Assembly: GCF_021398735.1 (NCBI RefSeq)
Contig: NZ_CP090349.1
Coordinates: 5,227,001 to 5,291,000 of the forward strand
DNA: 64,000 bases
Origin: Methylobacterium oryzae
GTDB taxonomy: Bacteria > Pseudomonadota > Alphaproteobacteria > Rhizobiales > Beijerinckiaceae
Direction: 5' to 3'
Below, piece after piece: positions 14,980 to 27,663 of the stretch. Under the pieces are notes generated by a model. It saw only the letters and a program-made list of their open reading frames with translations, had not been told where the DNA came from and ran no database searches. Position 1 is the stretch's first letter, and each line of letters begins with the position of its first letter. The position numbers were made by a program, and so were the translations under genes.

Positions 14980-15254
14980 GCGCGCGAACCGGTCACGATC
15001 GCTCGGACGACGCGAGAGGCGTCGTCTGTGCAGATGCCCCGCGACCCGGCGTGTTGAGAGCCCGTGCGCCGGAGCGACCCTCCCCTTCCCTCACCGCTCG
15101 AACCGGCGACGACGGCGTCTTCGCGCGCTTCGTGCGGGCGCACCGTCGATCCCGATCAGATTGTAGTTATTCAAAATCTAGTCTGGAGGCTCCGCCGGCG
15201 ATCAAGCTTGACCGTGAATGTTTCCGCACCGTATCTGGCGCCACTCGAAACAGA
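14980..15254 (+). promoter_or_regulatory. Upstream region of the TonB-dependent receptor with an AT-rich island
   Basis: Most of this stretch is GC-rich with no gene, but 15158-15182 (GATTGTAGTTATTCAAAATCTAG) is a sharp AT-rich island about 75 nt before the receptor start. Such islands in high-GC alphaproteobacteria often hold promoters or Irr/RirA/Fur sites. No exact iron box can be claimed by eye. Confidence 0.4.
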
Positions 15255-17435
15255 ATGGTCGACATCGTGGTACGGCGTAACTGTGCAAGGTCTTGCACGC
15301 GGTCTTCGCGCGCCGTTTCCGGGCGCGCAGCCAGAATCTCCCTCTTCCTCGCTCCGGTATTGCTCCCGTCTCCAGGCTGGGCTCAACTTGCCATTGACAG
15401 TTCCCAGGAAGTCCAGCTGGAGGAGCTGTCGGTGGCGGGGACCGGCGACGGGACGTCCCGCGTCGACGGTTACCGGGCCACGCGGGCAGTGAGCGCCACG
15501 CGGACCGACACGCCCGTCCGCGAGGTGCCGCAGACCATCGTGGCGGTGCCGCAGGAGGTGCTGGAGGACGCGGCGGCGACGCGGATCGACAGCGCCCTCG
15601 ACCTCGCGGGCGTCGGCCGCGGCAACAATTTCGGCGGTCTCGGCCTGACCGAGTTCACGATCCGCGGCGTGGCGACCGGCGAGTATTACCGCAACGGGTT
15701 CCCGATCAACCGCGGCTACCCCAACAGCCCCGACATCGTCTCCATCGAGCGCATCGAGGTCCTCAAGGGCCCCTCGGCCTTCCTGTACGGTCGCGGCGAT
15801 CCCGGCGGCACCTTCAACATTGTGACCAAGCAGCCGCTGGCGGCGCGCTCCCTCACGGTCGGCACGCAGTACGGCAGCTTCGGCGCCAAGCGGAGCACCT
15901 TCGACGCCACCGGCGCCCTCGATGAGAGCGGGCAGGTGCTGGCCCGCGTCACCGGCGCTGTCGAGGACAACGGCAGCTTCCGGGACTTCGTCACCAGCGA
16001 CCGCTACGCCCTCGCCCCGGTCATCGCCTGGAAGCCGACGACGGACACGACCGTCACCCTGGAGGGCGACTTCGTCAGCACGGCGCAGACCTTCGACCGC
16101 GGCATCGTCCCGCTGGGGGGCAACGTGCGCGCCCTGCCGCGCAGCCGCTTCATCGGCGAGCCGGGCCTGCCGCCGGCCCATGTCGACAACGCCCTCGGCC
16201 AGCTGCGCGTCGAGCACCGGTTCGACCAGGACTGGGTGCTGAACGTCGGTGCCCAGGTTCTCGGCGGGAACCTGTCGGGCTACGGGGTCGGCGCCATCGG
16301 CCTGCTGCCGGATGGCCGGACCCAGCGGCGGACCCTGGAATGGCGGGACCTGACGTGGTCCGACCTCGACCTGCAGGCGAATCTCGCGGGCAAGTTCGAG
16401 ACCGGCCCGTTCCGCCACACGCTCCTGCTCGGGCTGGAATACGACAGCTACCGCTACCGGGAGGTGTTCAACCGCTCGAACGTGGCGACGAACCCGTTCC
16501 TCCTCGACCTGCTGGCGCCGCGCTACGGCCAGCCGCTGCCGCCGATCACCGCGCAGGTCACGAACTTCCTGCAGAAGACCGAGAGCTACGCCGGCTACGT
16601 GCAGGACCAGATCGACCTCACGCCCCGCCTCCACGCCCTCCTGGGTGTCCGGGTCGAGGACCTCGGGCTGGTCTCGACGAACAACCTCACGAAGAGCACC
16701 ACCAGCCTCCAGGGTCTGGTTGCGACGCCGCGCTTCGGCCTGCTCTACGACCTGACCGACACGGTCGCGCTCTACGGCAACTACGCGCGCTCGTTCCGGC
16801 CCAATATCGGCACGGATCGCAGCGGCCGGCCCTTCGCGTTCGAGGAGGGTGAGGGCTACGAGGCCGGCGCGAAGGTCAGCCTGCTCGACGGGCGCCTCGA
16901 CGCCACCGCCGCCCTGTTCGAGATCCGGCGCTCCAACGTCCTGAGCACCGATCCGGTCGACCCGAACTTCAGCGTGGCCACCGGCACGGTGCGCAGCCGC
17001 GGCTTCGACCTGACCGCCGCCGGCTACCTGGCCCCGGGCTGGCGCGTGATCGGGACCTACACGCGCGTCGACGCGGCCGTCGCCCGCGACAACACCCTGC
17101 CGGTCGGCACGCGCATCGCCAACGTGCCCGCCAACAGCCTCGCGTTCCAGACCGTCTACGAGTTCCAGAGCGGCGACCTGAAGGGGCTCGGCCTGGGCGG
17201 CGGCCTCGACTTCGTCGGCCGGCGCGCCGCGGGGACGGCGCTCGCGACCTTCAACCTGCCGCAATACACGCTGGTCAACCTGATCTCGTACTACCAGATC
17301 GCGCCGGGCGTGCGGATCTACCTCAACGTCGACAACGTGTTCGACGCGACGTTCTACGACCGCGCGTTCCAGAACCGCTACGCGACGCCGGGGCAGCCCC
17401 GCACGATCATCGGCGGCGTCGCCGCCCGGTTCTGA
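15255..17435 (+). CDS. TonB-dependent outer-membrane receptor (siderophore type)
   Basis: 726 residues from ATG 15255. A long signal sequence ends near PSPGWAQ (about residue 45). A TonB-box-like segment (EELSVAG) is followed by the plug domain (VREVPQTIVAVPQEVLEDAAATRI, then RIEVLKGPSAFLYGRGDPGG, the classic plug signature) and a ~550-residue beta-barrel ending in the expected aromatic residue (GGVAARF). It lacks the N-terminal signalling (STN) extension seen in FecA/FpvA-type receptors. The family imports ferric siderophores using TonB energy. No biosynthesis, ABC importer, FecI or FecR gene is adjacent, so the ligand is unknown. Confidence 0.93.
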   Translation: MVDIVVRRNCARSCTRSSRAVSGRAARISLFLAPVLLPSPGWAQLAIDSSQEVQLEELSVAGTGDGTSRVDGYRATRAVSATRTDTPVREVPQTIVAVPQEVLEDAAATRIDSALDLAGVGRGNNFGGLGLTEFTIRGVATGEYYRNGFPINRGYPNSPDIVSIERIEVLKGPSAFLYGRGDPGGTFNIVTKQPLAARSLTVGTQYGSFGAKRSTFDATGALDESGQVLARVTGAVEDNGSFRDFVTSDRYALAPVIAWKPTTDTTVTLEGDFVSTAQTFDRGIVPLGGNVRALPRSRFIGEPGLPPAHVDNALGQLRVEHRFDQDWVLNVGAQVLGGNLSGYGVGAIGLLPDGRTQRRTLEWRDLTWSDLDLQANLAGKFETGPFRHTLLLGLEYDSYRYREVFNRSNVATNPFLLDLLAPRYGQPLPPITAQVTNFLQKTESYAGYVQDQIDLTPRLHALLGVRVEDLGLVSTNNLTKSTTSLQGLVATPRFGLLYDLTDTVALYGNYARSFRPNIGTDRSGRPFAFEEGEGYEAGAKVSLLDGRLDATAALFEIRRSNVLSTDPVDPNFSVATGTVRSRGFDLTAAGYLAPGWRVIGTYTRVDAAVARDNTLPVGTRIANVPANSLAFQTVYEFQSGDLKGLGLGGGLDFVGRRAAGTALATFNLPQYTLVNLISYYQIAPGVRIYLNVDNVFDATFYDRAFQNRYATPGQPRTIIGGVAARF

Positions 17436-17445
17436 GGCCCCGGCG

Positions 17446-18243
17446 CTACGCCGCTGCCGCCCGCATCCAGCCGAGCCCTGCCTCGGTGCCGGCCGCGGGA
17501 TGGTACTCGCAGCCGACGAAGCCGGAATAGCCGACCTCCTCCAGGGCGGCGAAGATCGGGTCGAAGGCGATCGTGCCGGTCCCCGGCTCGTGCCGCCCGG
17601 GATCGTCGGCGATCTGGACATGGGCGATGAGCGGCGCGTGCGCGCGGATCAGCGCCGCCGGGTCATGGCCGAGGCACACGCAGTGATAGGCGTCGAACAG
17701 CAGCTTGACGTTGTCGCGGCCGATCGCCCGGATCGCCTCGACCGCCAGCAGCGGGTCGTCGATCGCGTAGTCGGTGATCGAACCGGGACCGATCGGCTCG
17801 ACGATCACCGTCATGCCGCGCGCGCCGGCGGCGTCGGCTGCGAAGGCGAGGTTGTCGAGATAGGTGTCCCAGAGCCGCGCCCGCTCGACTCCCGCGGGCC
17901 GGACGCCCGCCATCGGGTGGACCATCCGGCAGCCGAGCTGCGCGACGTAGTCCAGGGTCGGCTCGATCGTGGAGCGGAAGTAATCGATCCGGTCGGGCAG
18001 CGCCGCGAAGCCCTTCTCGCCCTTGGCGGCGTCCCCCGCCGGGAAGCCGGTCTGGACCAGCGGCACGCCCGCCCGCTCCAGCCAGCCCGCGACCTCCCGG
18101 GCCGGCGTCGCGAACAGGTTGGGATGCTCGACCGCGCGGAACCCGGCACGGGCCGCGGCCGCGAAGCGCTCGGCCAGCGGCAGCTCCGTGAACAGGAAGC
18201 CGCAATGGCCGCTGAGACGATCCTTGTAGGCACCGAGCTTCAT
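17446..18243 (-). CDS. Hydroxypyruvate isomerase-like TIM-barrel sugar-acid isomerase
   Basis: 265 residues of the xylose-isomerase-like TIM-barrel family. Landmarks are GHCGFLFTELPLAERFAAAARAGFRAVEHPN at the start, VIVEPIG (metal-binding Glu), LLFDAYHC (Asp/His metal site), HVQIADDPGRHEPGTG and GFVGCEYHPA (last metal Glu). These match hydroxypyruvate isomerase (Hyi) and 2-oxo-tetronate isomerase (OtnI), which interconvert short 2-keto acids and semialdehydes using a divalent metal. It is encoded 3 bp after the racemase-fold gene and shares its LacI-type operator. Which short sugar acid it acts on is not deducible. Confidence 0.85.
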   Translation of the reverse strand: MKLGAYKDRLSGHCGFLFTELPLAERFAAAARAGFRAVEHPNLFATPAREVAGWLERAGVPLVQTGFPAGDAAKGEKGFAALPDRIDYFRSTIEPTLDYVAQLGCRMVHPMAGVRPAGVERARLWDTYLDNLAFAADAAGARGMTVIVEPIGPGSITDYAIDDPLLAVEAIRAIGRDNVKLLFDAYHCVCLGHDPAALIRAHAPLIAHVQIADDPGRHEPGTGTIAFDPIFAALEEVGYSGFVGCEYHPAAGTEAGLGWMRAAAA

Positions 18244-18246
18244 GGG

Positions 18247-18918
18247 TCAGGCGCTCCCGCCGGTCTCGATCATCGCCCGCATCCGGTCCACCGCCGCGTG
18301 GGGCGCGGTCAGAACCGGGACGTCGACGGCCTTCCGCACGGCCTCGGCCGCGCGCGAGGTGGAGAAATGCGCGAGCATGATCGCGTCGCAGTCGCGCAGG
18401 TCCGGCGCCCGCTCGGCGATCAGCCGGTTGTGGGTCTCGGCGTCGCCGGCGCGCAGCCGCGCCATCGCGTCGTCCACCAGGACCGTCCGCAGACTCGCCG
18501 GGCGCCCGGACTCGGCGACGAACTCCTCGAACTCGTCCGTCATCGTGCCGACCGAGGGCCCGAAGGTCGCCAGCATGCCGATGCGCGCGCCCTGCGCGAT
18601 CGCCGCGCGGAACATCGCCTCGTTGGGCTTGAGCACCGGGACCGGTACGGTCTCGATCAGCCGGTCGATGGCCGGACCGAAGGCCGAGCAGGTGATCAGG
18701 ATGCCGTCGGCGCCCATGTCGTGGCCGTAGCGGCCGAACCGCACGAAGCGCTCGATCATCGTCTCCGAGATCGCGCCCGGCTCCCTCGCCCGATCGAGGG
18801 ACAGGCCGTCGTCGAGCAGGTTGACGGTCTCGGCCTCCGGCCAGCGCTCGGCGAAGGCGGCCTGGATCGGCGCCATGGCGACCGGCGTCGCGTGCAGGAG
18901 GACGATGCGGGGAGCCAT
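18247..18918 (-). CDS. Asp/Glu/hydantoin racemase-fold protein with one active-site Cys
   Basis: 223 residues from ATG 18918. The fold is recognised from the N-terminal strand and helix (RIVLLHATPVAMAPIQAAFAERWP) and the first active-site loop GILITCSAFGPAIDRL with a Cys at about residue 79. At the second active-site position, where racemases have Cys (as in GCTE/GCTH), this protein reads IMLAHFSTSRA and has no Cys. A two-base racemase mechanism is therefore doubtful; decarboxylase- or isomerase-like activity, or a non-catalytic role, is possible. It is the first gene of the leftward operon under a LacI-type operator. Confidence 0.8.
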   Translation of the reverse strand: MAPRIVLLHATPVAMAPIQAAFAERWPEAETVNLLDDGLSLDRAREPGAISETMIERFVRFGRYGHDMGADGILITCSAFGPAIDRLIETVPVPVLKPNEAMFRAAIAQGARIGMLATFGPSVGTMTDEFEEFVAESGRPASLRTVLVDDAMARLRAGDAETHNRLIAERAPDLRDCDAIMLAHFSTSRAAEAVRKAVDVPVLTAPHAAVDRMRAMIETGGSA

Positions 18919-18966
18919 GCTGTGTTCCGGAGAGTCTACGGAGCCGGACGGGGCCGGTCCGCATGT

Positions 18967-18980
18967 TGTAAGCGATTTCA
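18967..18980. promoter_or_regulatory. LacI-family operator upstream of racemase-isomerase operon
   Basis: On the minus strand this reads TGAAATCGCTTACA, matching the perfect palindrome at 20187-20200 in 12 of 14 positions, including the central CGCTT that LacI-family proteins contact. It lies 48 bp upstream of the racemase-fold start codon. Confidence 0.72.
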
Positions 18981-19003
18981 ACTGGGTGGCAAGATAGCGC
19001 AGG

Positions 19004-20053
19004 TCAGGCGTCGGCACGCCGCGGCGGAGCCGTGCTGGCGCGCAGGATCAGCTCGGCGTCGATCTCGGTGAGACGGACCATCGGCCGCCCCTGGATCCGG
19101 GCGATCAGGTGGTCGCCGGCGGCGTGGCCGATCTCGGCGGAGTGGATGCGGATCGTCGTCAGCGCCGGGTCGAGGAAGGGCGCGAAGTCGGAATCGTTGT
19201 GGCCGATCACCGACAGGTCGCCGGGAATGGAGAGCCCCCTTGCCCGCGCCTCGATCATCGCCCCGAAGGCGATCTGGTCGGTGCCGCAGATGATCGCGGT
19301 CGGGGGCGGGCCGCCGGCCAGCATCTGGCGGAACCCGTCGCGGCCGCCGCCGATCCCGTAGGAGATCTCGATGTCGTGCTCCGGGGCGAGCCGCAGGCCG
19401 CGGGCCGCGAGCGCCGCCGCGATGCCCGTCACCCGGGCGCCGCCGCGGTCGTTGTCCTTGCGCAGGCCCGAGATCACCCCGATCCGGCGATGGCCGAGAT
19501 CCATCAGGTAGTTGGCCGCCCGGGCCGCCGAGGCAGCGTTGTCGAAGCCCACGCAGGGGCGCTCGCGGGACAGACTGAAGGTCTGCACCATCGGGATGCC
19601 GGCGCGGGCGATCCGGGCGTGGAGGTCCGGGTGGTGGATGTCGCCGACCAGCATCAGTCCGTCGACGCCGCGCTCCAGCAGGAAGGTCGCCTCGCGGAGC
19701 TCGTCCTCCAGGTCGTAGCCGGCATTGGCCGCCACCAGGGTGTAGCCCGCCTGCCGCAGCCGGTCCTGGAAGCTCGACAGGACGCGCACGAAGGCCTCGT
19801 TCTCGATGTTCGGCACGACGGCGCCGACGGCCATGAAGCGGCGCGTCGAGAGCGCCCGGGCCGCCCCGTTGGCGACGAAGCCGAGATCCTGCGCGGCCCG
19901 CATCACCGCCGCGCGCTTGTCGGCCCGGACGCCGGCGGAGCCGTTCAGCACCCGGGACACCGTCGCAGTCGAGACGCCGGCGCGGCGGGCGACGTCCCGG
20001 GCAACCGGGCTGCGCGTCGGCGGCTCGAGGATCTCCTCCGGCAGGTCCAGCAC
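19004..20053 (-). CDS. LacI-family transcriptional repressor of the sugar-acid locus
   Basis: 349 residues from GTG 20053, chosen because GGAGG lies about 10 nt upstream. The N-terminal HTH is canonical (ARDVARRAGVSTATVSRVLNG) followed by the hinge helix (ARALSTRRFM). The ligand domain is a periplasmic-binding-protein fold (VGAVVPNIENEAFVRVLSSF, GVDGLMLVGDIHH, VGFDNAASAARAANYLMDLGHRRIGVISG, ICGTDQIAFGAM). It likely represses the two flanking transcription units through the operators at 18967-18980 and 20187-20200, and a sugar acid or keto acid should release it. The gene lies between its two targets. Confidence 0.92.
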   Translation of the reverse strand: MLDLPEEILEPPTRSPVARDVARRAGVSTATVSRVLNGSAGVRADKRAAVMRAAQDLGFVANGAARALSTRRFMAVGAVVPNIENEAFVRVLSSFQDRLRQAGYTLVAANAGYDLEDELREATFLLERGVDGLMLVGDIHHPDLHARIARAGIPMVQTFSLSRERPCVGFDNAASAARAANYLMDLGHRRIGVISGLRKDNDRGGARVTGIAAALAARGLRLAPEHDIEISYGIGGGRDGFRQMLAGGPPPTAIICGTDQIAFGAMIEARARGLSIPGDLSVIGHNDSDFAPFLDPALTTIRIHSAEIGHAAGDHLIARIQGRPMVRLTEIDAELILRASTAPPRRADA

Positions 20054-20158
20054 TGAGATCGATCCTCCTCCCGAACGGCCCCGCGGGGCAGCGCGTCGGC
20101 CCCGGATACGCGACGCGGCGATGCCCGGCCAGCAGAAGCGGGCCGAACCGGCAGTATA

Positions 20159-20188
20159 TTGACACCCCACCCGACCGCTGGCTATCTG
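20159..20188 (+). promoter_or_regulatory. Putative sigma-70 promoter of the rightward sugar-acid operon
   Basis: A perfect -35 box TTGACA at 20159-20164 is followed after 18 nt by TATCTG at 20183-20188, a moderate -10 box. The palindromic operator begins at 20187, so a bound repressor would block this promoter. Confidence 0.55.
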
Positions 20189-20200
20189 AAAGCGCTTTCA
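20187..20200. promoter_or_regulatory. Perfect LacI-family operator
   Basis: TGAAAGCGCTTTCA is a perfect 14 bp palindrome with the central CG typical of LacI/GalR-family operators. It lies 37 bp before the alpha-hydroxy-acid oxidase start and overlaps the putative promoter; the repressor gene diverges from here. Confidence 0.82.
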
Positions 20201-20237
20201 AGAGGCTGCTCGATCGGGCGGCCCACAGGAGGATCCG

Positions 20238-21545
20238 ATGGCGACGCTCGACCGGCCGGCCTCCGGACTGGGAGCCCCAGAGCGCGCCGCGCCGACCGTC
20301 GGCGGCGCGGACGCCGCGGCGCCGGGCATCGCGGCCCCGCAGGCCATCATCACCAGCCTGAAGCGCAGCGACGCGGTCACGCCCTACCGGTTCCGCGACC
20401 TGCTGGCCCTCGACGATTTCGAGCGGCACGCCCGCAAGCTCCTGCCGCCGATGATCTTCCAGTACGTGGCCGGCGGGGTCGAGACCGGCTCGGCCCTGGC
20501 GCAGAGCCGCGGCGCCTACGCCGACTACGCCCTGGTCCCCCGCCTGATGCGGGACACCTCGGCGCGGGACACCGCCACCACGCTGTTCGGCCAGACCTAC
20601 GCGGCGCCGTTCGGGATCGGGCCGCTGGGCGGGGCCGCCTTCATCGCCTACCGGGGCGACCTCGTGCTCGCCGAGGCGGCCCGGCGGATGAACCTGCCGA
20701 TGTGCCTGAGCGCGTCCTCGCTGATCAGGCTGGAGGACGTCCACGCCCAGAACCCGCAGGCCTGGTTCCAGGGCTACCTGCCGGGCGACCAGAACCGGAT
20801 CGACCGCCTCCTCGACCGGGTCGAAGCCACCGGCTACCGGACCTTCGTGGTGACCGCCGACACGCCGACCCTCGGCAACCGCGAGCACAACATTCGCAGC
20901 GGCTTCTCCATGCCGATCAAGGTCACGCCGAAGGTGGCGTGGCAGAGCGCCACCCACCCGCGCTGGCTGCTCGGAACCGTCGCCCGGACCTTCCTCAAGC
21001 ACGGGGCCCCGCACTTCGAGAACACCGAGGCCGAGCGCGGGCCGCCGATGATGTCCCAGGGCGCGGTGCGCAACACCATCGCCCGCGACCAGCTCTCGTG
21101 GAAGAACCTGGAGGCGATCCGCAAGCGGTGGTCCGGCAACCTGCTGGTGAAGGGCCTGCTGGCGCCCGAGGACGTCGACATCGCGCGGGAGTGCGGCGCC
21201 GACGGCGTGATCCTGTCGACCCACGGCGGCCGCCAGCTCGACTACGCCGTCGCCCCCCTCGACGTGCTGCCGGAGATCGCCGCCCGGAAGGGCGGGCTGA
21301 AGATCATCGTCGACAGCGGCATCCGCCGGGGCACCGACGTGATGAAGGCGCTGGCGCTGGGCGCCGACTTCGTCCTGCTCGGCCGGCCCTTCATGTTCGC
21401 CGCGGCGCTCGGGGGCGCCGCGGGGGTCGAGCACGCGATGCGGATCCTCAAGGAGGAACTCAACCGCGACATGGCGCTGATCGGGGTGAATCGCCTGTCC
21501 GAACTCAATCCCGACTTCCTGCGCCGCACCCCGCGGCGGGCCTGA
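20238..21545 (+). CDS. FMN-dependent alpha-hydroxy-acid oxidizing protein (L-lactate dehydrogenase/glycolate oxidase family)
   Basis: 435 residues; AGGAGG lies 5 nt before the ATG. The FMN TIM barrel shows MIFQYVAGGVETGSALAQSR near residue 74, YLPGDQNRI, VVTADTP, LLVKGLLAPEDVDIA, the catalytic His in LSTHGGRQLDYA, VDSGIRRGTDVMKALALGADFVLLGR. Members oxidise L-2-hydroxy acids to 2-keto acids. The first ~45 residues are an Ala/Pro-rich extension not usual for the family. It is the first gene of the rightward operon with a LacI-type operator, so its substrate is probably a hydroxy acid in the sugar-acid pathway rather than plain lactate (inference). Confidence 0.9.
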   Translation: MATLDRPASGLGAPERAAPTVGGADAAAPGIAAPQAIITSLKRSDAVTPYRFRDLLALDDFERHARKLLPPMIFQYVAGGVETGSALAQSRGAYADYALVPRLMRDTSARDTATTLFGQTYAAPFGIGPLGGAAFIAYRGDLVLAEAARRMNLPMCLSASSLIRLEDVHAQNPQAWFQGYLPGDQNRIDRLLDRVEATGYRTFVVTADTPTLGNREHNIRSGFSMPIKVTPKVAWQSATHPRWLLGTVARTFLKHGAPHFENTEAERGPPMMSQGAVRNTIARDQLSWKNLEAIRKRWSGNLLVKGLLAPEDVDIARECGADGVILSTHGGRQLDYAVAPLDVLPEIAARKGGLKIIVDSGIRRGTDVMKALALGADFVLLGRPFMFAAALGGAAGVEHAMRILKEELNRDMALIGVNRLSELNPDFLRRTPRRA

Positions 21546-21722
21546 GCCGATGGCGGGAGGATCGACCGTGATCGGCTTCCCGGACACGCGCGGCGCGCCG
21601 GCGAGCGGCAGCGGGACAGCCGCCCGGGGCGCCGGGGCCGCCGCGCCCGGGCGCCCGGCATCCCTGCACCGTCGATCCCGCCGGCTGTCCCCGCAGCCCC
21701 GTCCCCGATCCGGATGCTCCGC

Positions 21723-22778
21723 ATGACCGACCCCGCCCCCCGCGGCCTCGCCTTCGTGGGCTGCTTCACCACCGAGCGGCGCCGGGCGCGCGGCCGGGGC
21801 ATCGACATCTACCGGACCGGTCGCGACCTCGGCGACTGGACGCATCTCGGCCGGGTCGAGAACCTGACGAACCCGTCCTTCCTGGTGACCGACCCGGCGC
21901 GCGCGATCCTCTACACGGTCCAGGGCGACGGCGAGGCAGCGAGCGCCTTCGCGCTGGAGCCCGACGGCACCCTGCGTGGCCTCGGCAGCGCCGCCACCGG
22001 CGGCACCAACAGCGTGCACCAGGCCCTCGACCCCGGGGGTCGGTTCCTGATCGTGGCCAACTACGCCAGCGGATCGGTCGCCCTCATGCCGGTGCGCGCC
22101 GATGGCGGCCTGGAGCCCGCGTGCCAAGTGCTGCCGCTCCCGGGCGAGCCGGGCCCGCACCGAACCGAGCAGGCCTGCGCCCACCCGCACCACGTGGTCC
22201 TGTCACCCGACGGTCGCCACGTCATCGTCCCCGACAAGGGCCTCGACCGCGTCTTCGTCCTGAAGCTCGCGGGTGAGCGGCTCGCCATCGTCTCGGAAAC
22301 CGCCATGCGTCCCGGCGCCGGCCCGCGCCACATCGCGTTCCACCCGCATGAGCCGCTCGCCTTCCTGGTCAACGAGCTCGACTCGAGCGTCGCCACCTGC
22401 CGGTGGGACGCGGACGCCGGAGCGCTGACGCCCCTGCACCTCGTCTCGACCCTGCCGCCGGACTTCTTCGGCGCGAGCACCGCCGCGGCCATCGCGGTCA
22501 CGCCCGACGGACGATTCGTCTACGCGTCGAACCGCGGACAGGACGGGATCGCGCGGTTCCGGGCGGACCCGGCCGGGCGCCTCGAACCCGCGGGCTGGAC
22601 GTCCTCCGGCGGCCGCGACCCGCGCTTCATGGTCCTGGCACCGGACGGAGGCCACCTGCTCGTCGCCAACGAGCAGGGCGACTGCCTCGTCGCCTTCGCC
22701 ATCGATCCCGAGAGCGGAGACCTCACTCGGACCGGTTCGCGCCCGAGCCTCAGTCCCTGCACGATCGCGTTCCTGTAG
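21723..22778 (+). CDS. Lactonase family protein (YbhE-type seven-bladed beta-propeller)
   Basis: 351 residues from ATG 21723 (an ATG at 21714 is also possible). It has the repeated blade pattern of the 6-phosphogluconolactonase/carboxy-cis,cis-muconate cyclase family: NPSFLVTDPARAILYTVQ, NYASGSVALMPV, HPHHVVLSPDGRHVIVPDKGLDRV, PRHIAFHPHEPLAFLVNEL, AIAVTPDGRFVYASNRG, DPRFMVLAPDGGHLLVANE. No signal peptide is seen. Such enzymes open sugar lactones; beside a uronate dehydrogenase, the aldarolactone it produces is a natural substrate (inference). It is separated by 177 bp from the oxidase gene, with no second promoter evident. Confidence 0.86.
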   Translation: MTDPAPRGLAFVGCFTTERRRARGRGIDIYRTGRDLGDWTHLGRVENLTNPSFLVTDPARAILYTVQGDGEAASAFALEPDGTLRGLGSAATGGTNSVHQALDPGGRFLIVANYASGSVALMPVRADGGLEPACQVLPLPGEPGPHRTEQACAHPHHVVLSPDGRHVIVPDKGLDRVFVLKLAGERLAIVSETAMRPGAGPRHIAFHPHEPLAFLVNELDSSVATCRWDADAGALTPLHLVSTLPPDFFGASTAAAIAVTPDGRFVYASNRGQDGIARFRADPAGRLEPAGWTSSGGRDPRFMVLAPDGGHLLVANEQGDCLVAFAIDPESGDLTRTGSRPSLSPCTIAFL

Positions 22779-22823
22779 GAGGCGCCGACGCGTTCAGGCC
22801 CGCGCCGCGCGCGGGCCCGACCA

Positions 22824-22840
22824 TGCCCCTCGAAGGGGCA
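22824..22840 (+). terminator. Intra-operon hairpin between lactonase and MFS genes
   Basis: TGCCCCT-CGA-AGGGGCA forms a perfect 7 bp stem with a tight loop. No T-run follows; it may be a weak terminator or an mRNA-processing or stabilising element within the operon. Confidence 0.35.
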
Positions 22841-22927
22841 AGAGAGGCGGAACCGGCGGCGGTCGAGCCGTGACCTCTGACCGCCGGGCCGCACCAAGCA
22901 AACAAGAAAAGAAAATCATAAATATTC

Positions 22928-22939
22928 TGGAGGATGCCC
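22928..22939 (+). promoter_or_regulatory. Strong ribosome-binding site deciding the MFS start
   Basis: TGGAGG (22928-22933) follows an unusually A-rich leader (22895-22925). An ATG directly abuts it at 22934, which is too close to be used; the next in-frame ATG at 22940 has the ideal 6 nt spacing and is taken as the start. Confidence 0.65.
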
Positions 22940-24235
22940 ATGTTCGCCAAGCGTTACAGGTTCCTGATCGCGTTCCTGCTGTTCATCGCCGGTATCATCA
23001 ACTACATGGACCGAGCCGCGCTCGGCGTCGCCGCGCCCTTCGTCAAGCAGGACCTGAACCTGTCGCCCTCGGAGCTGGGGGTGATCTTCAGCACGTTCTT
23101 CTTCGGCTACGCGCTGTTCGCCTTCGTGGGCGGGCAGCTCGCCGACCGCTACGGGCCGCGCAGCGTCTACAGCTGGGCGGCGGCCTCCTGGTCGGTCCTG
23201 TGCATGCTCACAGGGGCGGTGACCGGCTTCGCCCAGATGTTCATCGTCCGCGCCCTGTTCGGCTTCGCCGAGGGGCCGATGAACTCCACCACGAACCGCA
23301 CCATCACCACGTGGTTCCCCCGCGAGGAGACCGCTCGGACCATCGGCTTCACCTTCTCGGGCCAGACGGTGGGCAGCGCCATCGCGGCGCCGGTCGTCGG
23401 CCTGCTGGCGATCCAGTACGGCTGGCGCGTGGCGTTCGTGGCCATCGGCGCCGTCGGCCTGCTGTGGGTCGTGGCGTGGCGGATGCTGATGACCGACCGG
23501 CCGCAGGACAACCCGCGGGTCCATCCGGAGGAGATCGCCCTCGTGGAGCGCAGCCGGGCGGTCACGCACCTCGCGCCCTCCGACCATGCCCGCTCGCTGA
23601 AGGAGTACCTGTTCCTGCCGAGCACCCTGTCGCTCGGGCTCGGCATGTTCGCGGTGAATTACACCCTCTACATCTTCCTCTCGTGGCTCCCGAGCTATCT
23701 CACCGACGCGCTGCACATGCCGGTGAAGGAGATGGCGCTCGTGGCGTCGATCCCCTGGGCCTGCGGCTTCGTCGGCTATGTCGGCGGGGGCGTGGTGGCG
23801 GACTTCGTCTACACGCGCATGGGCGACAAGCTCGCCGCGCGGAAGATCACCACGATCGTGCCGCTCGCCATCGCGGGGGTGGCCCTGATCATGGTCAACG
23901 CCGCGACCAGCACCGCCATGGCGGTCTCGCTGATCGCGCTCGCCGTGCTGATGCTGACCAGCTCGGTGCAATCCTGCTGGGCGACGATCCACGAGCTGGT
24001 GCCCGAGGCCCGGGTCGGCGGCGTCAGCGGCTTCATCCACCTCCTGAGCAACATCTCGGGCATCATCGGGCCGACTGCCACGGGACTGGCCGTGCAGTAT
24101 CTCGGGGGCTACGCCAGCGCCTTCGTGATCGCCGCCCTGATCGCGGCGGCCGGCGTCGTCGCGATGGCGATCTTCGTGCGGCGGCCGCGCAACCCGGCGG
24201 AAGCCGGCCCCCTCACCGCGGCCAAGGCCGTCTGA
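22940..24235 (+). CDS. MFS transporter, anion:cation symporter (ACS) family
   Basis: 431 residues with 12 predicted membrane helices. The beginning (FAKRYRFLIAFLLFIAGIINYMDRAALGVAAPF) and the loop motif GGQLADRYGPRSVYSWAAASWS are typical of the ACS family, which includes glucarate/galactarate (GudP) and hexuronate (ExuT) permeases. It would import a sugar acid with protons across the inner membrane. Other landmarks are EGPMNSTTNRTITTWFPREE and a second-half VGYVGGGVVADF. Its place between lactonase and uronate dehydrogenase genes supports a uronate or aldarate substrate. The A-rich leader with strong SD suggests good translation. Confidence 0.9.
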   Translation: MFAKRYRFLIAFLLFIAGIINYMDRAALGVAAPFVKQDLNLSPSELGVIFSTFFFGYALFAFVGGQLADRYGPRSVYSWAAASWSVLCMLTGAVTGFAQMFIVRALFGFAEGPMNSTTNRTITTWFPREETARTIGFTFSGQTVGSAIAAPVVGLLAIQYGWRVAFVAIGAVGLLWVVAWRMLMTDRPQDNPRVHPEEIALVERSRAVTHLAPSDHARSLKEYLFLPSTLSLGLGMFAVNYTLYIFLSWLPSYLTDALHMPVKEMALVASIPWACGFVGYVGGGVVADFVYTRMGDKLAARKITTIVPLAIAGVALIMVNAATSTAMAVSLIALAVLMLTSSVQSCWATIHELVPEARVGGVSGFIHLLSNISGIIGPTATGLAVQYLGGYASAFVIAALIAAAGVVAMAIFVRRPRNPAEAGPLTAAKAV

Positions 24236-24280
24236 CCGAGGCTGTCCGATCAAGTCCGCCGGAATCTGGAGCAGCGTCCC

Positions 24281-25111
24281 ATGAGCCCCGAGACCGTCCC
24301 GCCCAAACCCGTCCTCCTGACCGGAGCCTCCGGCGCCCTCGGGCGCGTCCTGACCCGCGCGCTCGGCGCGCAGGGCTGGACGCTCCGGCTCACGGACCGC
24401 GTCCCCTTCCCCGACCCGTTGCCGGAGGGGGCGCGGTTCCAGGTCGCCGACCTGGAGGACGGGCCGGCGATCCTCCGGCTGGCAGAGGGCTGCGGCACGA
24501 TCCTCCATTTCGGGGGGATCTCGGTGGAGCACCCGTTCGAGACCGTGATCGGCCCGAACATTCGCGGCCTCTACCACGCCTACGAGGCGGCCCGGCGCGA
24601 GGGCGCCCGGATGATCTTCGCCTCGTCGAACCACGCGATCGGCTTCCACCCGCGGTCCGAGGTGCTGGACGACGATTGCGGCCTCGCGCCCGACGGCTAT
24701 TACGGCCTGTCCAAGGCCTACGGCGAGCTGATGGGCGGCCTCTACCGCGACAAGCACGGGGTCGAGAGCGTCTTCCTGCGGATCGGCTCGTGCTTCCCGG
24801 AGCCGACCGACGCGCGGATGCTGGCCACGTGGCTGTCCTACGCCGACCTGACCCGGCTGATCACCCGCGCCACCCTGGCCCCGGACCTCGGCCCGACGGG
24901 CTCGGTGGTGATCTGGGGCGCCTCGAACAACAGCCGCATGACCTGGTGGCGGAAGGACGGGCGCGCCGTCATCGGCTGGACGCCGCAGGACAGCGCCGAT
25001 TCCCACGCGGCGGCGCTGGAGGGGAAGACCAGCGGCAACCCGGTGGTGGAGCGCTACCAGGGCGGCGGCTTCACGGCGATCGACTATTCCCGCGCCGCGC
25101 CGCCGCGGTGA
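24281..25111 (+). CDS. udh: Uronate dehydrogenase-like NAD(P)-dependent epimerase/dehydratase family protein
   Basis: 276 residues; a GGAG lies 9 nt before ATG. It is a short-chain (extended) Rossmann protein with LTGASGALGRVLTRAL, the active-site segment FASSNHAIGFHPR, catalytic YYGLSKAYGE, then RIGSCFPEPTDARMLATWLS and a C-terminal WWRKDGRAVIGWTPQDSAD. These match characterised uronate dehydrogenases (Agrobacterium, Pseudomonas) from memory, which oxidise glucuronate or galacturonate to aldarolactone with NAD+. The lactonase gene upstream could open the product. Related NAD-dependent enzymes acting on other hexoses cannot be excluded. Confidence 0.82.
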   Translation: MSPETVPPKPVLLTGASGALGRVLTRALGAQGWTLRLTDRVPFPDPLPEGARFQVADLEDGPAILRLAEGCGTILHFGGISVEHPFETVIGPNIRGLYHAYEAARREGARMIFASSNHAIGFHPRSEVLDDDCGLAPDGYYGLSKAYGELMGGLYRDKHGVESVFLRIGSCFPEPTDARMLATWLSYADLTRLITRATLAPDLGPTGSVVIWGASNNSRMTWWRKDGRAVIGWTPQDSADSHAAALEGKTSGNPVVERYQGGGFTAIDYSRAAPPR

Positions 25112-25175
25112 CGGACCGCTTCTTCGGCGCGCGGCCGCCCGACCGCTCCTCCCGAGACGAGAGACTGGACACACG

Positions 25176-25877
25176 ATGCCGAACGAGCGACCCGAGACAC
25201 GCCTCAAATGCGCCCTGGTGGTGCGCGGCGCCTTCGACGCCCACGTCGTCCCGGCCTTCGAGGCCGCGGGGGGCCGGACGGCGATCCACTGGGCGCCGAC
25301 CACGGTCATCATGAAGACCCTCGCCGAGGGCGAGACCGCCGACGCGGTGCTCGTCCTGTCGGATGCCATGGATCGGCTCGTCGCCGAGGACCGCGTCGAG
25401 CCCGAGAGCCGGGTCGACGTGGTGCGCTCGCGCTACGGCATCGCCGTCAAGGCCGGGGCTCCGCATCCGGACATCGCGACCGTCGAGGCGCTGAAGCGCA
25501 CCCTGGTGGAGGCGCGGTCGGTGGCCTACTCGCGGACCGGCGCCAGCGGGATCTACTTCGCCGGCCTGCTGCCGCGGCTCGGCCTTGCCGACGCGGTGAA
25601 CGCCCGGGCGACGATCATCCCGCAGGGCTTCACGGCCGAGAAGCTGGTCTCCGGGGAGGCCGACATCGCCGTCCAGCAGATCAGCGAGCTGATGGTCGTG
25701 CCCGGCATCGAGGTGGTCGGCCCCCTCCCCGACCCGGTGCAGGAGATGACGACCTTCGCGGCGGCGATCCTGCGCGGCGCGACGGACCGGGACGGCGCGG
25801 CCCGATTCCTCGCCGGGCTGACGACGCCGCAGGCGGCCGAGGCCTATCGGACCAGCGGGCTGGAGCCGGCCTACTGA
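25176..25877 (+). CDS. ModA-like type 2 substrate-binding protein lacking a signal peptide
   Basis: 233 residues. The fold is that of molybdate-binding-like extracellular solute-binding proteins (DAVLVLSDAMDRLVAEDRV, SVAYSRTGASGIYFAGLLPRLGL, AEKLVSGEADIAVQQISELMVVPGIEVVGPLP, ATDRDGAARFLAGLTTPQAAEAYRTSGLEP). The N-terminus (MPNERPETRLKCALVV) has no hydrophobic signal and I see no earlier start, so it seems cytoplasmic. There is no permease or ATPase gene nearby. As the apparent last gene of the sugar-acid operon it may bind a pathway intermediate inside the cell; this is inference. Confidence 0.8.
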   Translation: MPNERPETRLKCALVVRGAFDAHVVPAFEAAGGRTAIHWAPTTVIMKTLAEGETADAVLVLSDAMDRLVAEDRVEPESRVDVVRSRYGIAVKAGAPHPDIATVEALKRTLVEARSVAYSRTGASGIYFAGLLPRLGLADAVNARATIIPQGFTAEKLVSGEADIAVQQISELMVVPGIEVVGPLPDPVQEMTTFAAAILRGATDRDGAARFLAGLTTPQAAEAYRTSGLEPAY

Positions 25878-26031
25878 CGGCGGCCGACGCCCCCGACCGC
25901 GCGCATTCCGGCCCCGCTCTGCGCCGCTTAAGTTGAAGCGGCGGGGTGGGACCGGGGTTCGCGACCGCAAAAAAGTCCTTATGCTCGTGCTGTCCGGACG
26001 CCCAATCCCGTCCGACCGGATCGCTCCATTC

Positions 26032-27663
26032 ATGCTGAAGACAGCCTTCGTTGCCGCCCGCGACCGCCAGCGGCTGTCGGAGATCGCGACGATCCTCATC
26101 GGCTTCGGCGTCACCCGCGTCGTGGACCGGCTCGGCCTGCGCTACCTGCCGCTCCTGCCGCGCCGGCAGCCCCGGGTCGACGTCACGCGCCTGTCCGAGC
26201 CGGAGCGGCTGCGCCGGGCGATCGAGGCGCTCGGGCCGACCTTCATCAAGTTCGGGCAGGTGCTGGCGAGCCGGCCGGACCTCCTGTCGCCGGCCTGGAC
26301 CGAGGAGCTGCAGAAGCTCCACAGCCAGGTCGTGCCGGTGACGTGGGAGCAGATCGGCCCGCAGCTCGAGCTCGATCTCGGCGCCTCGCCCATGGAGGTG
26401 TTCGCCGAGTTCGACACCAACCCGATCGCCTCGGCGTCGATCGCACAGGTCTACCGGGCGCGACTGCACTCGGGCGAGGACGTCATCGTCAAGGTGCTGC
26501 GGCCGAATCTGCGCAAGATCATCGAGGCGGATCTGCGCCTCATGGCGCACGGTGCCCGCATCGTCGAGAACGAGTGGCCCGACATGGCCCGCTACCAGCC
26601 GCGGGAGCAGATGCGCCACCTCGCGGAGGGTCTCAACGGCGAGCTCGACCTGCTCAACGAGGCGCGCAACTGCGAGCTGCTGGCCCAGATCTTCGAGGAC
26701 CGCGACGACATCGTCTTCCCGAAGATCCACTGGGAGTACTGCTCCGAGCGGGTGCTGGTGCAGGACTTCATCCACGGCATCCCGCCCAACGACGAGGCGG
26801 CCCTCCGCGCGGCGGGTATCGACAAGAAGCTGCTCGCCCAGAAGGGAACCGACGCGTTCCTGCAGATGGCGCTGATCGAGGGCGTGTTCCACGCCGACCC
26901 GCATCCCGGCAACATGCTGGCCCTGCCCGGCAACAAGATCGGCTTCATCGATTTCGGGATCATCGGGCGGCTGTCGCAGCGGCGGCGCTCGCAGCTGCTC
27001 GTGCTGATTGGCGCCATGCTCAAGCAGGACGCCGACGGCCTCATGGCCGTGCTCCTCGACTGGACCGGCACCAGCAACCCGGACCTCACCCGCCTCCAGG
27101 TCTCGGCCCAGTCCTTCGTGGAGAGCCACTCGTCGATCCCGCTGAACCTCGGGCTGGTGCTGACCGACTTCATGAACATGGCCCGCGAGAACGACCTCGC
27201 GATGCCGACCGACCTGGCCATCCTGTTCAAGGGGCTGGTCACCGCCGACGGCGTCATGCGCCACCTCGACCCGAATTTCGACCTGTTCGCCGCCGCGGGC
27301 CCCACGGTCCGGGCGAGCATGCAGACGCAGTTCTCGCTCTCCGCCCTCAAGCAGAAGGCCGAGGCCCTGGGCGTCGGCCTCTACGGCGCCGCCTCGGAGC
27401 TGCCGACCCTGATCCACCTGATGCTGGTGCGGCTGAAGCAGGGCCGCGTCACTGTCGAGATCGAGGTGAAGGGCCTCGACAAGGTCACCCGCGGCATCGA
27501 GCGCGCGGCCGCGCGGGTCGCCGTGGCCCTGGTGGTGGCGGCCTTCGCCACGCAGCTCGCACCCCGCCTCATCGATCTCGGCACGCCCGTCTTCGTCTCG
27601 ATCGGATTGATAATTTTTATCCTCGGGATCGGCTGGCTCGTGCTGCTGATGCGAAACAAGTAA
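26032..27663 (+). CDS. ubiB: ABC1/UbiB family atypical kinase
   Basis: About 543 residues from ATG 26032; ATG 25981 and TTG 25933 are in frame and would add 17 or 33 residues, but none of the three has a clear ribosome site. The ABC1 signature KxGQ is in FIKFGQVLASRPDLLS, followed by ASIAQVYRARLHSGEDVIVKVLRP (Ala-rich nucleotide loop and Lys), NEARNCELL, FHADPHPGNML (catalytic loop) and GFIDFGIIGRL (metal-binding Asp). Two hydrophobic helices end the protein (VFVSIGLIIFILGIGWLVLLM). UbiB proteins are membrane-bound ATPases needed for ubiquinone biosynthesis. The gene stands alone, not beside ubiE, so a paralogue is possible. Confidence 0.88.
   Translation: MLKTAFVAARDRQRLSEIATILIGFGVTRVVDRLGLRYLPLLPRRQPRVDVTRLSEPERLRRAIEALGPTFIKFGQVLASRPDLLSPAWTEELQKLHSQVVPVTWEQIGPQLELDLGASPMEVFAEFDTNPIASASIAQVYRARLHSGEDVIVKVLRPNLRKIIEADLRLMAHGARIVENEWPDMARYQPREQMRHLAEGLNGELDLLNEARNCELLAQIFEDRDDIVFPKIHWEYCSERVLVQDFIHGIPPNDEAALRAAGIDKKLLAQKGTDAFLQMALIEGVFHADPHPGNMLALPGNKIGFIDFGIIGRLSQRRRSQLLVLIGAMLKQDADGLMAVLLDWTGTSNPDLTRLQVSAQSFVESHSSIPLNLGLVLTDFMNMARENDLAMPTDLAILFKGLVTADGVMRHLDPNFDLFAAAGPTVRASMQTQFSLSALKQKAEALGVGLYGAASELPTLIHLMLVRLKQGRVTVEIEVKGLDKVTRGIERAAARVAVALVVAAFATQLAPRLIDLGTPVFVSIGLIIFILGIGWLVLLMRNK

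Follow-up and report, generated by a model that had tools for sequence, protein, structure and literature searches.

A LacI-linked sugar-acid locus of Methylobacterium oryzae and its possible flavin-linked entry into 3-oxo-tetronate catabolism

Which catabolic route is encoded by a gene cluster that joins a uronate-dehydrogenase-like enzyme and a lactonase to a flavin-dependent 2-hydroxy-acid oxidase, an isomerase-like protein and a racemase-fold protein? We addressed this question for a locus at positions 17446-25877 of a 64,000-nucleotide stretch of the Methylobacterium oryzae genome (NZ_CP090349.1, positions 5,227,001 to 5,291,000; hereafter the window). The locus holds eight genes: the two genes of a minus-strand unit, a gene for a LacI-type repressor and five plus-strand genes. 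In a preliminary description of the sequence, these genes had been taken as two LacI-linked units for sugar acids with a downstream route other than the classical aldarate one, and our analysis supported this view. The gene families are ordinary, but their combination is unusual and conserved. On balance, we slightly favour the interpretation that the locus is a LacI-repressed accessory unit for sugar-acid catabolism, providing a flavin-linked entry into the conversion of 3-oxo-tetronate to dihydroxyacetone phosphate (DHAP). The gene families, the operators, the conserved co-occurrence of the genes and the presence of OtnK, OtnC, LtnD and DenD in the genome were established by computation.

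We infer the size of the substrate, the order of the reactions and the exit via 3-oxo-tetronate as follows. The major facilitator superfamily (MFS) permease of the ACS/D-galactonate type (22934..24235, plus strand, 433 aa; TIGR00893 293 bits, cut-off 395) would import a sugar acid. An alternative source of the acid could be a uronic-type sugar, oxidised to the lactone by the uronate-dehydrogenase-like extended short-chain dehydrogenase/reductase (SDR; 24281..25111, plus strand, 276 aa; 211 bits to uronate dehydrogenase 3rft) and opened by the 7-bladed beta-propeller lactonase (21723..22778, plus strand, 351 aa; PF10282 311 bits). The flavin mononucleotide (FMN)-dependent 2-hydroxy-acid dehydrogenase/oxidase (FMNox; 20238..21545, plus strand, 435 aa; PF01070 409 bits) would oxidise the 2-hydroxy group, with the electrons perhaps passing to the respiratory chain. 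The 2-oxo acid would be converted to 3-oxo-tetronate by a Hyi/OtnI-like isomerase, a xylose-isomerase-like TIM barrel (Hyi; 17446..18243, minus strand, 265 aa; PF01261 146 bits), and an Asp/Glu-racemase-fold protein (AGR; 18247..18918, minus strand, 223 aa; PF01177 64.2 bits, cut-off 31), with the participation of a ModA-fold protein of PBP type II (SBP; 25176..25877, plus strand, 233 aa; PF13531). Finally, OtnK and OtnC from a distant locus (C1:3762987-3770386) would turn 3-oxo-tetronate into DHAP. All enzymes listed in the preliminary description were recovered here, and SBP was the one gene that it had left unnamed.

Both units are very probably under the control of the LacI-family repressor of the locus (19004..20053, minus strand, 349 aa; PF00356 53.8 bits, PF13377 106 bits), as judged from their operators. 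The LacI-type operator TGTAAGCGATTTCA (18967..18980) sits 49 bases 5' of AGR and of the AGR-Hyi unit, in which the two genes are spaced 3 bases apart. A second operator, the perfect palindrome TGAAAGCGCTTTCA (20187..20200), separates LacI from FMNox, at a distance of 134 bases 5' of the former and 38 bases 5' of the latter. The two sequences differ at 2 of 14 bases, and they were the only matches to the pattern TGNAAGCGNTTTCA in the whole genome of 6,652,319 bases, the chance expectation being about 0.14 if independent bases and 69% GC are assumed; the earlier observation of a LacI gene placed between two units with near-identical operators was borne out. Among the 22 AGR-carrying Methylobacterium loci, the operator 5' of AGR was kept in all 22 and that 5' of FMNox in 21 (with no more than 3 mismatches), the exception being L039, which also lost LacI. 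In Gluconobacter loci LacI was 51-59% identical in pieces, and similar sites preceded SBP and AGR; one of these loci, L056, had such a site upstream of the permease as well. Enterobacterial loci contained operator-like sites with 1-3 mismatches, part of which could be due to chance. The GTG start of LacI was picked from its ribosome-binding site (upstream sequence GGAGGAGG), and the intergenic gaps inside the plus-strand unit measured 45-177 bases.

The gene combination recurred well beyond the window. A search with SBP yielded 48 named loci, 28 with AGR and 25 with FMNox at an identity of at least 58%. FMNox and AGR were present in 22 of the 24 Methylobacterium loci and SDR in 19; L035 runs into a contig end and L033 holds SBP alone. 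Hyi, AGR, FMNox and SBP all occurred in 22/22 loci. The lactonase and the permease were not found in the stretches of the SDR-bearing loci L037, L039 and L050 and thus look dispensable. The core of FMNox, AGR and SBP was also found in other proteobacteria: outside Methylobacterium, FMNox occurred at 58% identity or more in nine loci, which carried AGR (9/9), SBP (8/9), OtnK (6/9) and OtnC (5/9). The loci were gathered via SBP, AGR or FMNox, and the least biased sample was the FMNox search of plasmids, in which 44 records were found. All four matches at 60% identity or more had AGR, SBP and OtnK; neither AGR nor OtnK was present in the 4 opened of the 40 matches below 60%, and homologues at 50-54% identity look, from these four, like a different subfamily.

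The proposed exit is suggested by the clusters of relatives. In three Methylobacterium loci without SDR (L048, L049 and L055), OtnC and OtnK were placed between Hyi and AGR. OtnK also adjoined AGR in L105, L169, Erwinia E602, two clusters of Pantoea At-9b, Agrobacterium vitis, Rhizobium Q54, L106 (from the same order as the window) and Arthrobacter L063, whose AGR was only 31% identical and which had AGR and SBP and no FMNox. OtnC was in the same stretch in each of these relatives from outside the genus except L169. L105 and L169 come from two genomes of one family, which we infer from the match to the Erwinia and Pantoea clusters to be gamma-proteobacterial. The OtnK and OtnC proteins scored 544.5 and 323.8 bits in L049, 524.8 and 270.2 in L105, and 451.8 and 264.7 in L063, and the Erwinia E602 OtnK 535.9 bits (NCBIfam cut-offs 350 for OtnK and 250 for OtnC); the proteins of the other relatives were named by similarity or by the annotation of the record. 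In Rhizobium Q54, the genes formed one series, SDR-FMNox-SBP-AGR-OtnK-OtnC, preceded by an SMP-30 lactonase and a TRAP transporter, and the SDR was 36% identical to that of the window. In A. vitis, OtnC was followed by an fba aldolase and fructose-bisphosphatase, and in Rhizobium CB3060 by tpiA; such neighbours, which use triose phosphate, fit DHAP as the product. The stretch of the A. vitis kinase has no full-length listed gene (the gene table omits pseudogenes). The ascorbate benzilic-rearrangement and apionate pathways were rejected, as the five kinases scanned scored 97-129 on the OiaK model, against a cut-off of 700.

Further plasmid loci were collected with AGR. When 16 of these were opened (15 of 86 matching records and one FMNox match, H41, with Pantoea At-9b counted twice), OtnK and OtnC were detected in 14, of which 11 had no OtnI homologue in the stretch. 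The two without OtnK belonged to Roseomonas haemaphysalidis and Cupriavidus taiwanensis, the latter with enolase, PEP carboxylase, glyceraldehyde-3-phosphate dehydrogenase and pyruvate kinase genes in the stretch. The oxidation fronts beside AGR varied: FMNox, a DRL/SAF-domain oxidoreductase with a tripartite tricarboxylate (TTT) transporter, or an isocitrate/isopropylmalate-dehydrogenase-like gene. These varied fronts around AGR, OtnK and OtnC suggest that AGR may act just before OtnK.

In the M. oryzae genome itself, a single OtnK scored above the cut-off (564 bits, C1:3768120-3769367). It belongs to a threonate/erythronate locus (L135, C1:3762987-3770386) 1.5 Mb from the window locus, together with OtnC (334 bits, cut-off 250), a LacI-type regulator, an MFS gene, LtnD (420, cut-off 350), DenD (366, cut-off 325) and an OtnI homologue with 39% identity to Hyi. 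In the genomes G025 and G033, the OtnK of the cluster was the only one found. The OtnK homologue at G007:C2:2008007-2009277 is split into two matches that overlap, which may point to a broken reading frame or a sequence error.

Several results weigh against a flavin-linked entry into 3-oxo-tetronate catabolism. Although an OtnK homologue (E <= 1e-10) occurred in 21/21 genus genomes with FMNox at 76% identity or more (119 genomes searched), and FMNox is absent from all 20 listed genomes of the genus that lack OtnK, these counts are uncorrected for relatedness, and 26 genus genomes carried an OtnK homologue but no FMNox. Neither OtnK nor OtnC was found in the window locus, in any of the 18 SDR-bearing Methylobacterium loci tabulated, in L047 (a Methylobacterium locus without SDR, 12 kb long), or in the locus of three FMNox-carrying relatives outside the genus (L054, L056 and L057). 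AGR reached 60% identity or more in 28 loci from other genera, and only eight of these had OtnK in the stretch (L105, L106, L169 and L194-L198); 15 of the remaining 20 were AGR and SBP pairs of one family without FMNox in the stretch (L170, L171, L174-L185 and L193), and the others were L052-L054, L056 and L057. Of 20 stretches from across the phylum, 15 had no OtnK match and five had one; the match in L119 was weak (32%), and those in L117 and L120 were 4.9-7.1 kb from an AGR homologue of 23-28% identity. These proportions imply that AGR is not exclusive to the OtnK exit, and FMNox clusters from outside the genus make a stronger case for this exit than AGR does by itself. The co-occurrence of SBP, AGR and FMNox is also partly a matter of selection, since the loci were found through these three proteins. 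Moreover, Hyi scored 240 bits on the model of the 2-oxo-tetronate isomerase OtnI (NF043033), below the cut-off of 325. The Hyi proteins of cluster relatives that were scored on this model likewise remained below it (234.7-269.5 bits).

The proposed entry was compared with the known routes for four-carbon acids. DenD belongs to the D-erythronate branch of the four-step pathway according to NCBIfam. That pathway (LtnD or DenD, OtnI, OtnK and OtnC; L-threonate steps of Zhang et al. 2016, as related in PMC12540250) has in common with the cluster an OtnI-like TIM barrel, a 2-oxo acid formed first, OtnK and OtnC in relatives and DHAP as the likely product. However, it uses the NAD-dependent LtnD or DenD, whereas the cluster has an FMN dehydrogenase, the additional AGR and SBP, and SDR and lactonase upstream. 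The window locus contained no LtnD or DenD dehydrogenase, no OtnK and OtnC, which the four-step pathway possesses, and no OtnI equivalog; its SDR scored 28.1 bits on the DenD model (cut-off 325), and the LtnD model was absent among the matches of SDR. The three-step L-threonate pathway, in which 2-OtnK and an FBP-aldolase-type 2-OtnC likewise lead from a C4 acid to DHAP (Guo et al. 2024, as related in PMC12540250), differs in its aldolase: the OtnC proteins examined from the clusters are Aldolase_II enzymes by their models (PF00596 for A. vitis; NF043034 for L049, L063 and L105).

FMNox aligned end to end with (S)-mandelate dehydrogenase 6bfg (247 bits), including the central segment, which we take to be membrane-binding. 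It showed the HGGRQLD and DSGxRRG stretches in this alignment and belongs to PF01070. It shares the FMN family with LldD and (S)-mandelate dehydrogenase but has an N-terminal extension of about 50 residues, and it was not LldD by the NCBIfam model (244.9 bits, cut-off 550). D-Threonate and L-erythronate are 2S acids. The substrates of the FMN family are L-2-hydroxy acids (PMC10153336); if this preference is valid for FMNox, D-threonate or L-erythronate would suit the enzyme better than L-threonate.

The structure model of AGR (pLDDT 91.9) showed the racemase fold, and both the PF01177 profile and the fold place it in the Asp/Glu racemase family. Cys77, Ser78 and Ser186 were invariant in 100/100 distinct AGR sequences from the window and the fetched loci, and position 184 was His in 66 and Gln in 34. 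The second catalytic cysteine of the superfamily, which includes arylmalonate decarboxylase (AMDase), is replaced in AGR: the site reads [AG]-[HQ]-x-S in 100/100 sequences, Cys77 having been matched to 2eq5 by profile and the position of the second site assigned from the order of the strands in the model. Two-base racemases of this fold need two cysteines (PMC12661438), and the reading of AGR as an ordinary two-cysteine racemase was set aside because the second one is missing. When enzymes of this fold act as decarboxylases, as AMDase does, a single cysteine is used (PMC6563808). With a single catalytic-site cysteine kept, AGR is more likely to be an isomerase or a decarboxylase than a racemase. 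Several AGR homologues are labelled arylsulfatase in UniProt or GenBank, against a profile and fold of the Asp/Glu racemases.

SBP adopted the ModA fold (structure model pLDDT 95.8), but it differs from the molybdate-binding protein ModA in having neither a signal peptide nor, on reading of 17446-25877, permease/ATPase (ModBC) partner genes, and it scored 20.6 bits on the modA equivalog model (cut-off 62.5). The possibility that SBP is a transporter component was set aside, as the locus contains no transporter partners. The best 50 matches listed per fold search were binding proteins and effector domains of regulators; no enzyme relative was found among them, an absence that excludes nothing. 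Aconitate isomerase, which we presume to be ModA-like, was not linked to molybdate or to binding proteins in the literature passages checked. Proteins nearly identical to SBP are on record from M. oryzae and M. radiotolerans.

These properties allow a bolder proposal, which we regard as tentative and rather unlikely. AGR could be a natural single-cysteine racemase-fold enzyme that produces 3-oxo-tetronate, either by decarboxylating a C5 3-oxo diacid or by acting as a 2-oxo/3-oxo-tetronate isomerase without a TIM barrel, with SBP a cytosolic enzyme in the same step; AGR would then be the shared module behind varied oxidation fronts, in an undescribed family of routes by which sugar acids of the branched or polycarboxylic kind are converted to DHAP.

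A related alternative keeps the same exit and starts from a polycarboxylate: SDR and lactonase would convert a penturonate to a five-carbon aldarate, from which FMNox would form the 2-oxo acid and Hyi the 3-oxo acid, which AGR would decarboxylate to 3-oxo-tetronate for OtnK and OtnC to finish. The single cysteine of AGR is in line with this, as is a structure entry that, according to its title, holds a Gly74Cys-Cys188Ser mutant of AMDase. SDR can be aligned with uronate dehydrogenase over its full length, and related AGR-OtnK-OtnC clusters carry polycarboxylate-type modules, namely TTT transporters, or AcnA with isocitrate/isopropylmalate-dehydrogenase-like genes. By its site pattern, however, AGR would not be AMDase-like, for its cysteine occupies the first site, whereas wild-type AMDase has Gly there and its cysteine at the second. 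In addition, the transporters of several clusters are of the MFS or TRAP type, AGR also occurs without OtnK, and no five-carbon aldarate is documented here as a natural substrate. We consider this version unlikely.

Classical uronate use is less probable still. The oxidative uronate pathway comprises uronate dehydrogenase, lactonase, an aldarate dehydratase and KdgD, and the locus shares SDR and lactonase with it; SDR is, by its sequence, a member of the uronate dehydrogenase family, aligning end to end with 3rft and keeping the SSNH, YxxxK and RIGSC stretches. In this explanation, SDR and lactonase would turn glucuronate or galacturonate into glucarate or galactarate, KdgD and galactarate enzymes elsewhere would finish, and FMNox, AGR, Hyi and SBP would serve a separate task. 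The preliminary description had found neither an aldarate dehydratase nor a KDG-type aldolase, which is correct for the locus only. Other parts of the genome encode KdgD (427 bits, cut-off 374), galactarate dehydratase (910, cut-off 731) and tartronate-semialdehyde reductase (393, cut-off 341), as well as a GarL/HpaI-like aldolase that stays below both cut-offs (295 of 407 and 325 of 369). KdgD adjoins an MFS permease (L220:9770-12068), and galactarate dehydratase, the aldolase and the reductase lie together with a TonB-receptor-like gene nearby (L221:6910-10224). The claim of an incomplete uronate route is weakened by these genes. On the other hand, sister clusters keep FMNox, AGR and SBP without SDR, a relative of SDR stands in one gene series with OtnK and OtnC in Rhizobium Q54, and three SDR-bearing loci had no detectable lactonase and permease in their stretches. 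A short keto-acid branch as previously suggested, with Hyi as hydroxypyruvate isomerase and tartronate semialdehyde reduced to glycerate, is very unlikely: Hyi scored slightly higher for hydroxypyruvate isomerase (TIGR03234, 260.8 bits) than for OtnI and the reductase exists elsewhere in the genome, but both Hyi scores are below the cut-off (353 for TIGR03234), the reductase is not among the eight locus genes, and several relatives carry OtnK and OtnC instead.

Returning to the flavin-linked entry into 3-oxo-tetronate catabolism, searches of open-access literature aimed at the cluster yielded no description of it, in agreement with the earlier suggestion of a possibly undescribed pathway, and the canonical threonate routes were found (PMC12540250); the main text of PMC9007349 mentions neither tetronate nor threonate. 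If the interpretation is true, C4 sugar-acid catabolism would gain a flavin-linked entry together with one or two new enzyme functions, and a role that can be tested would be assigned to two protein families with possibly misleading database names (aspartate racemase, arylsulfatase, molybdate-binding protein). L-Threonate is a major breakdown product of ascorbate in plants (PMC12540250), and thus such routes would be relevant to the feeding of plant-associated bacteria.

Some features of the locus and its relatives remain to be mentioned. The lactonase has a possible alternative ATG at 21714, and no signal peptide was seen on reading of its sequence. A TonB receptor gene (15051-17435) lies upstream of the locus, preceded by a 2-hydroxyacid-dehydrogenase-family gene and an aminotransferase-like gene, and a UbiB-family gene (25933-27663) lies downstream; none of these was taken as a member. 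The plasmids of A. tumefaciens Yub001 and Ancylobacter (L204 and L205) carry a TTT transporter, a DRL/SAF-domain oxidoreductase (PF21135, PF08666), AGR, OtnK and OtnC. Plasmids of Pantoea, Rhizobium, Shinella and A. pusense (L199, L207-L209 and L211) combine an isocitrate/isopropylmalate-dehydrogenase-like gene with AGR, OtnK and OtnC; the aconitase AcnA was seen in four of these five and not in the shown stretch of L207 (Rhizobium CB3060), and such clusters could serve the use of a hydroxylated tricarboxylic acid. Erwinia and Pantoea plasmids (L195 and L198) add a GMC dehydrogenase with a small subunit and cytochrome c to the cluster, and the substrate may here be oxidised outside the cytoplasm. 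In addition, a dihydroxy-acid-dehydratase-family gene is located near the cluster in L049 (L049:14748-18985; NF004784, 849 bits), with relatives in L048, L055, L054, L106 and L196, and L049 and L054 also have a DapA-like aldolase, an RraA-like protein and an SDR.

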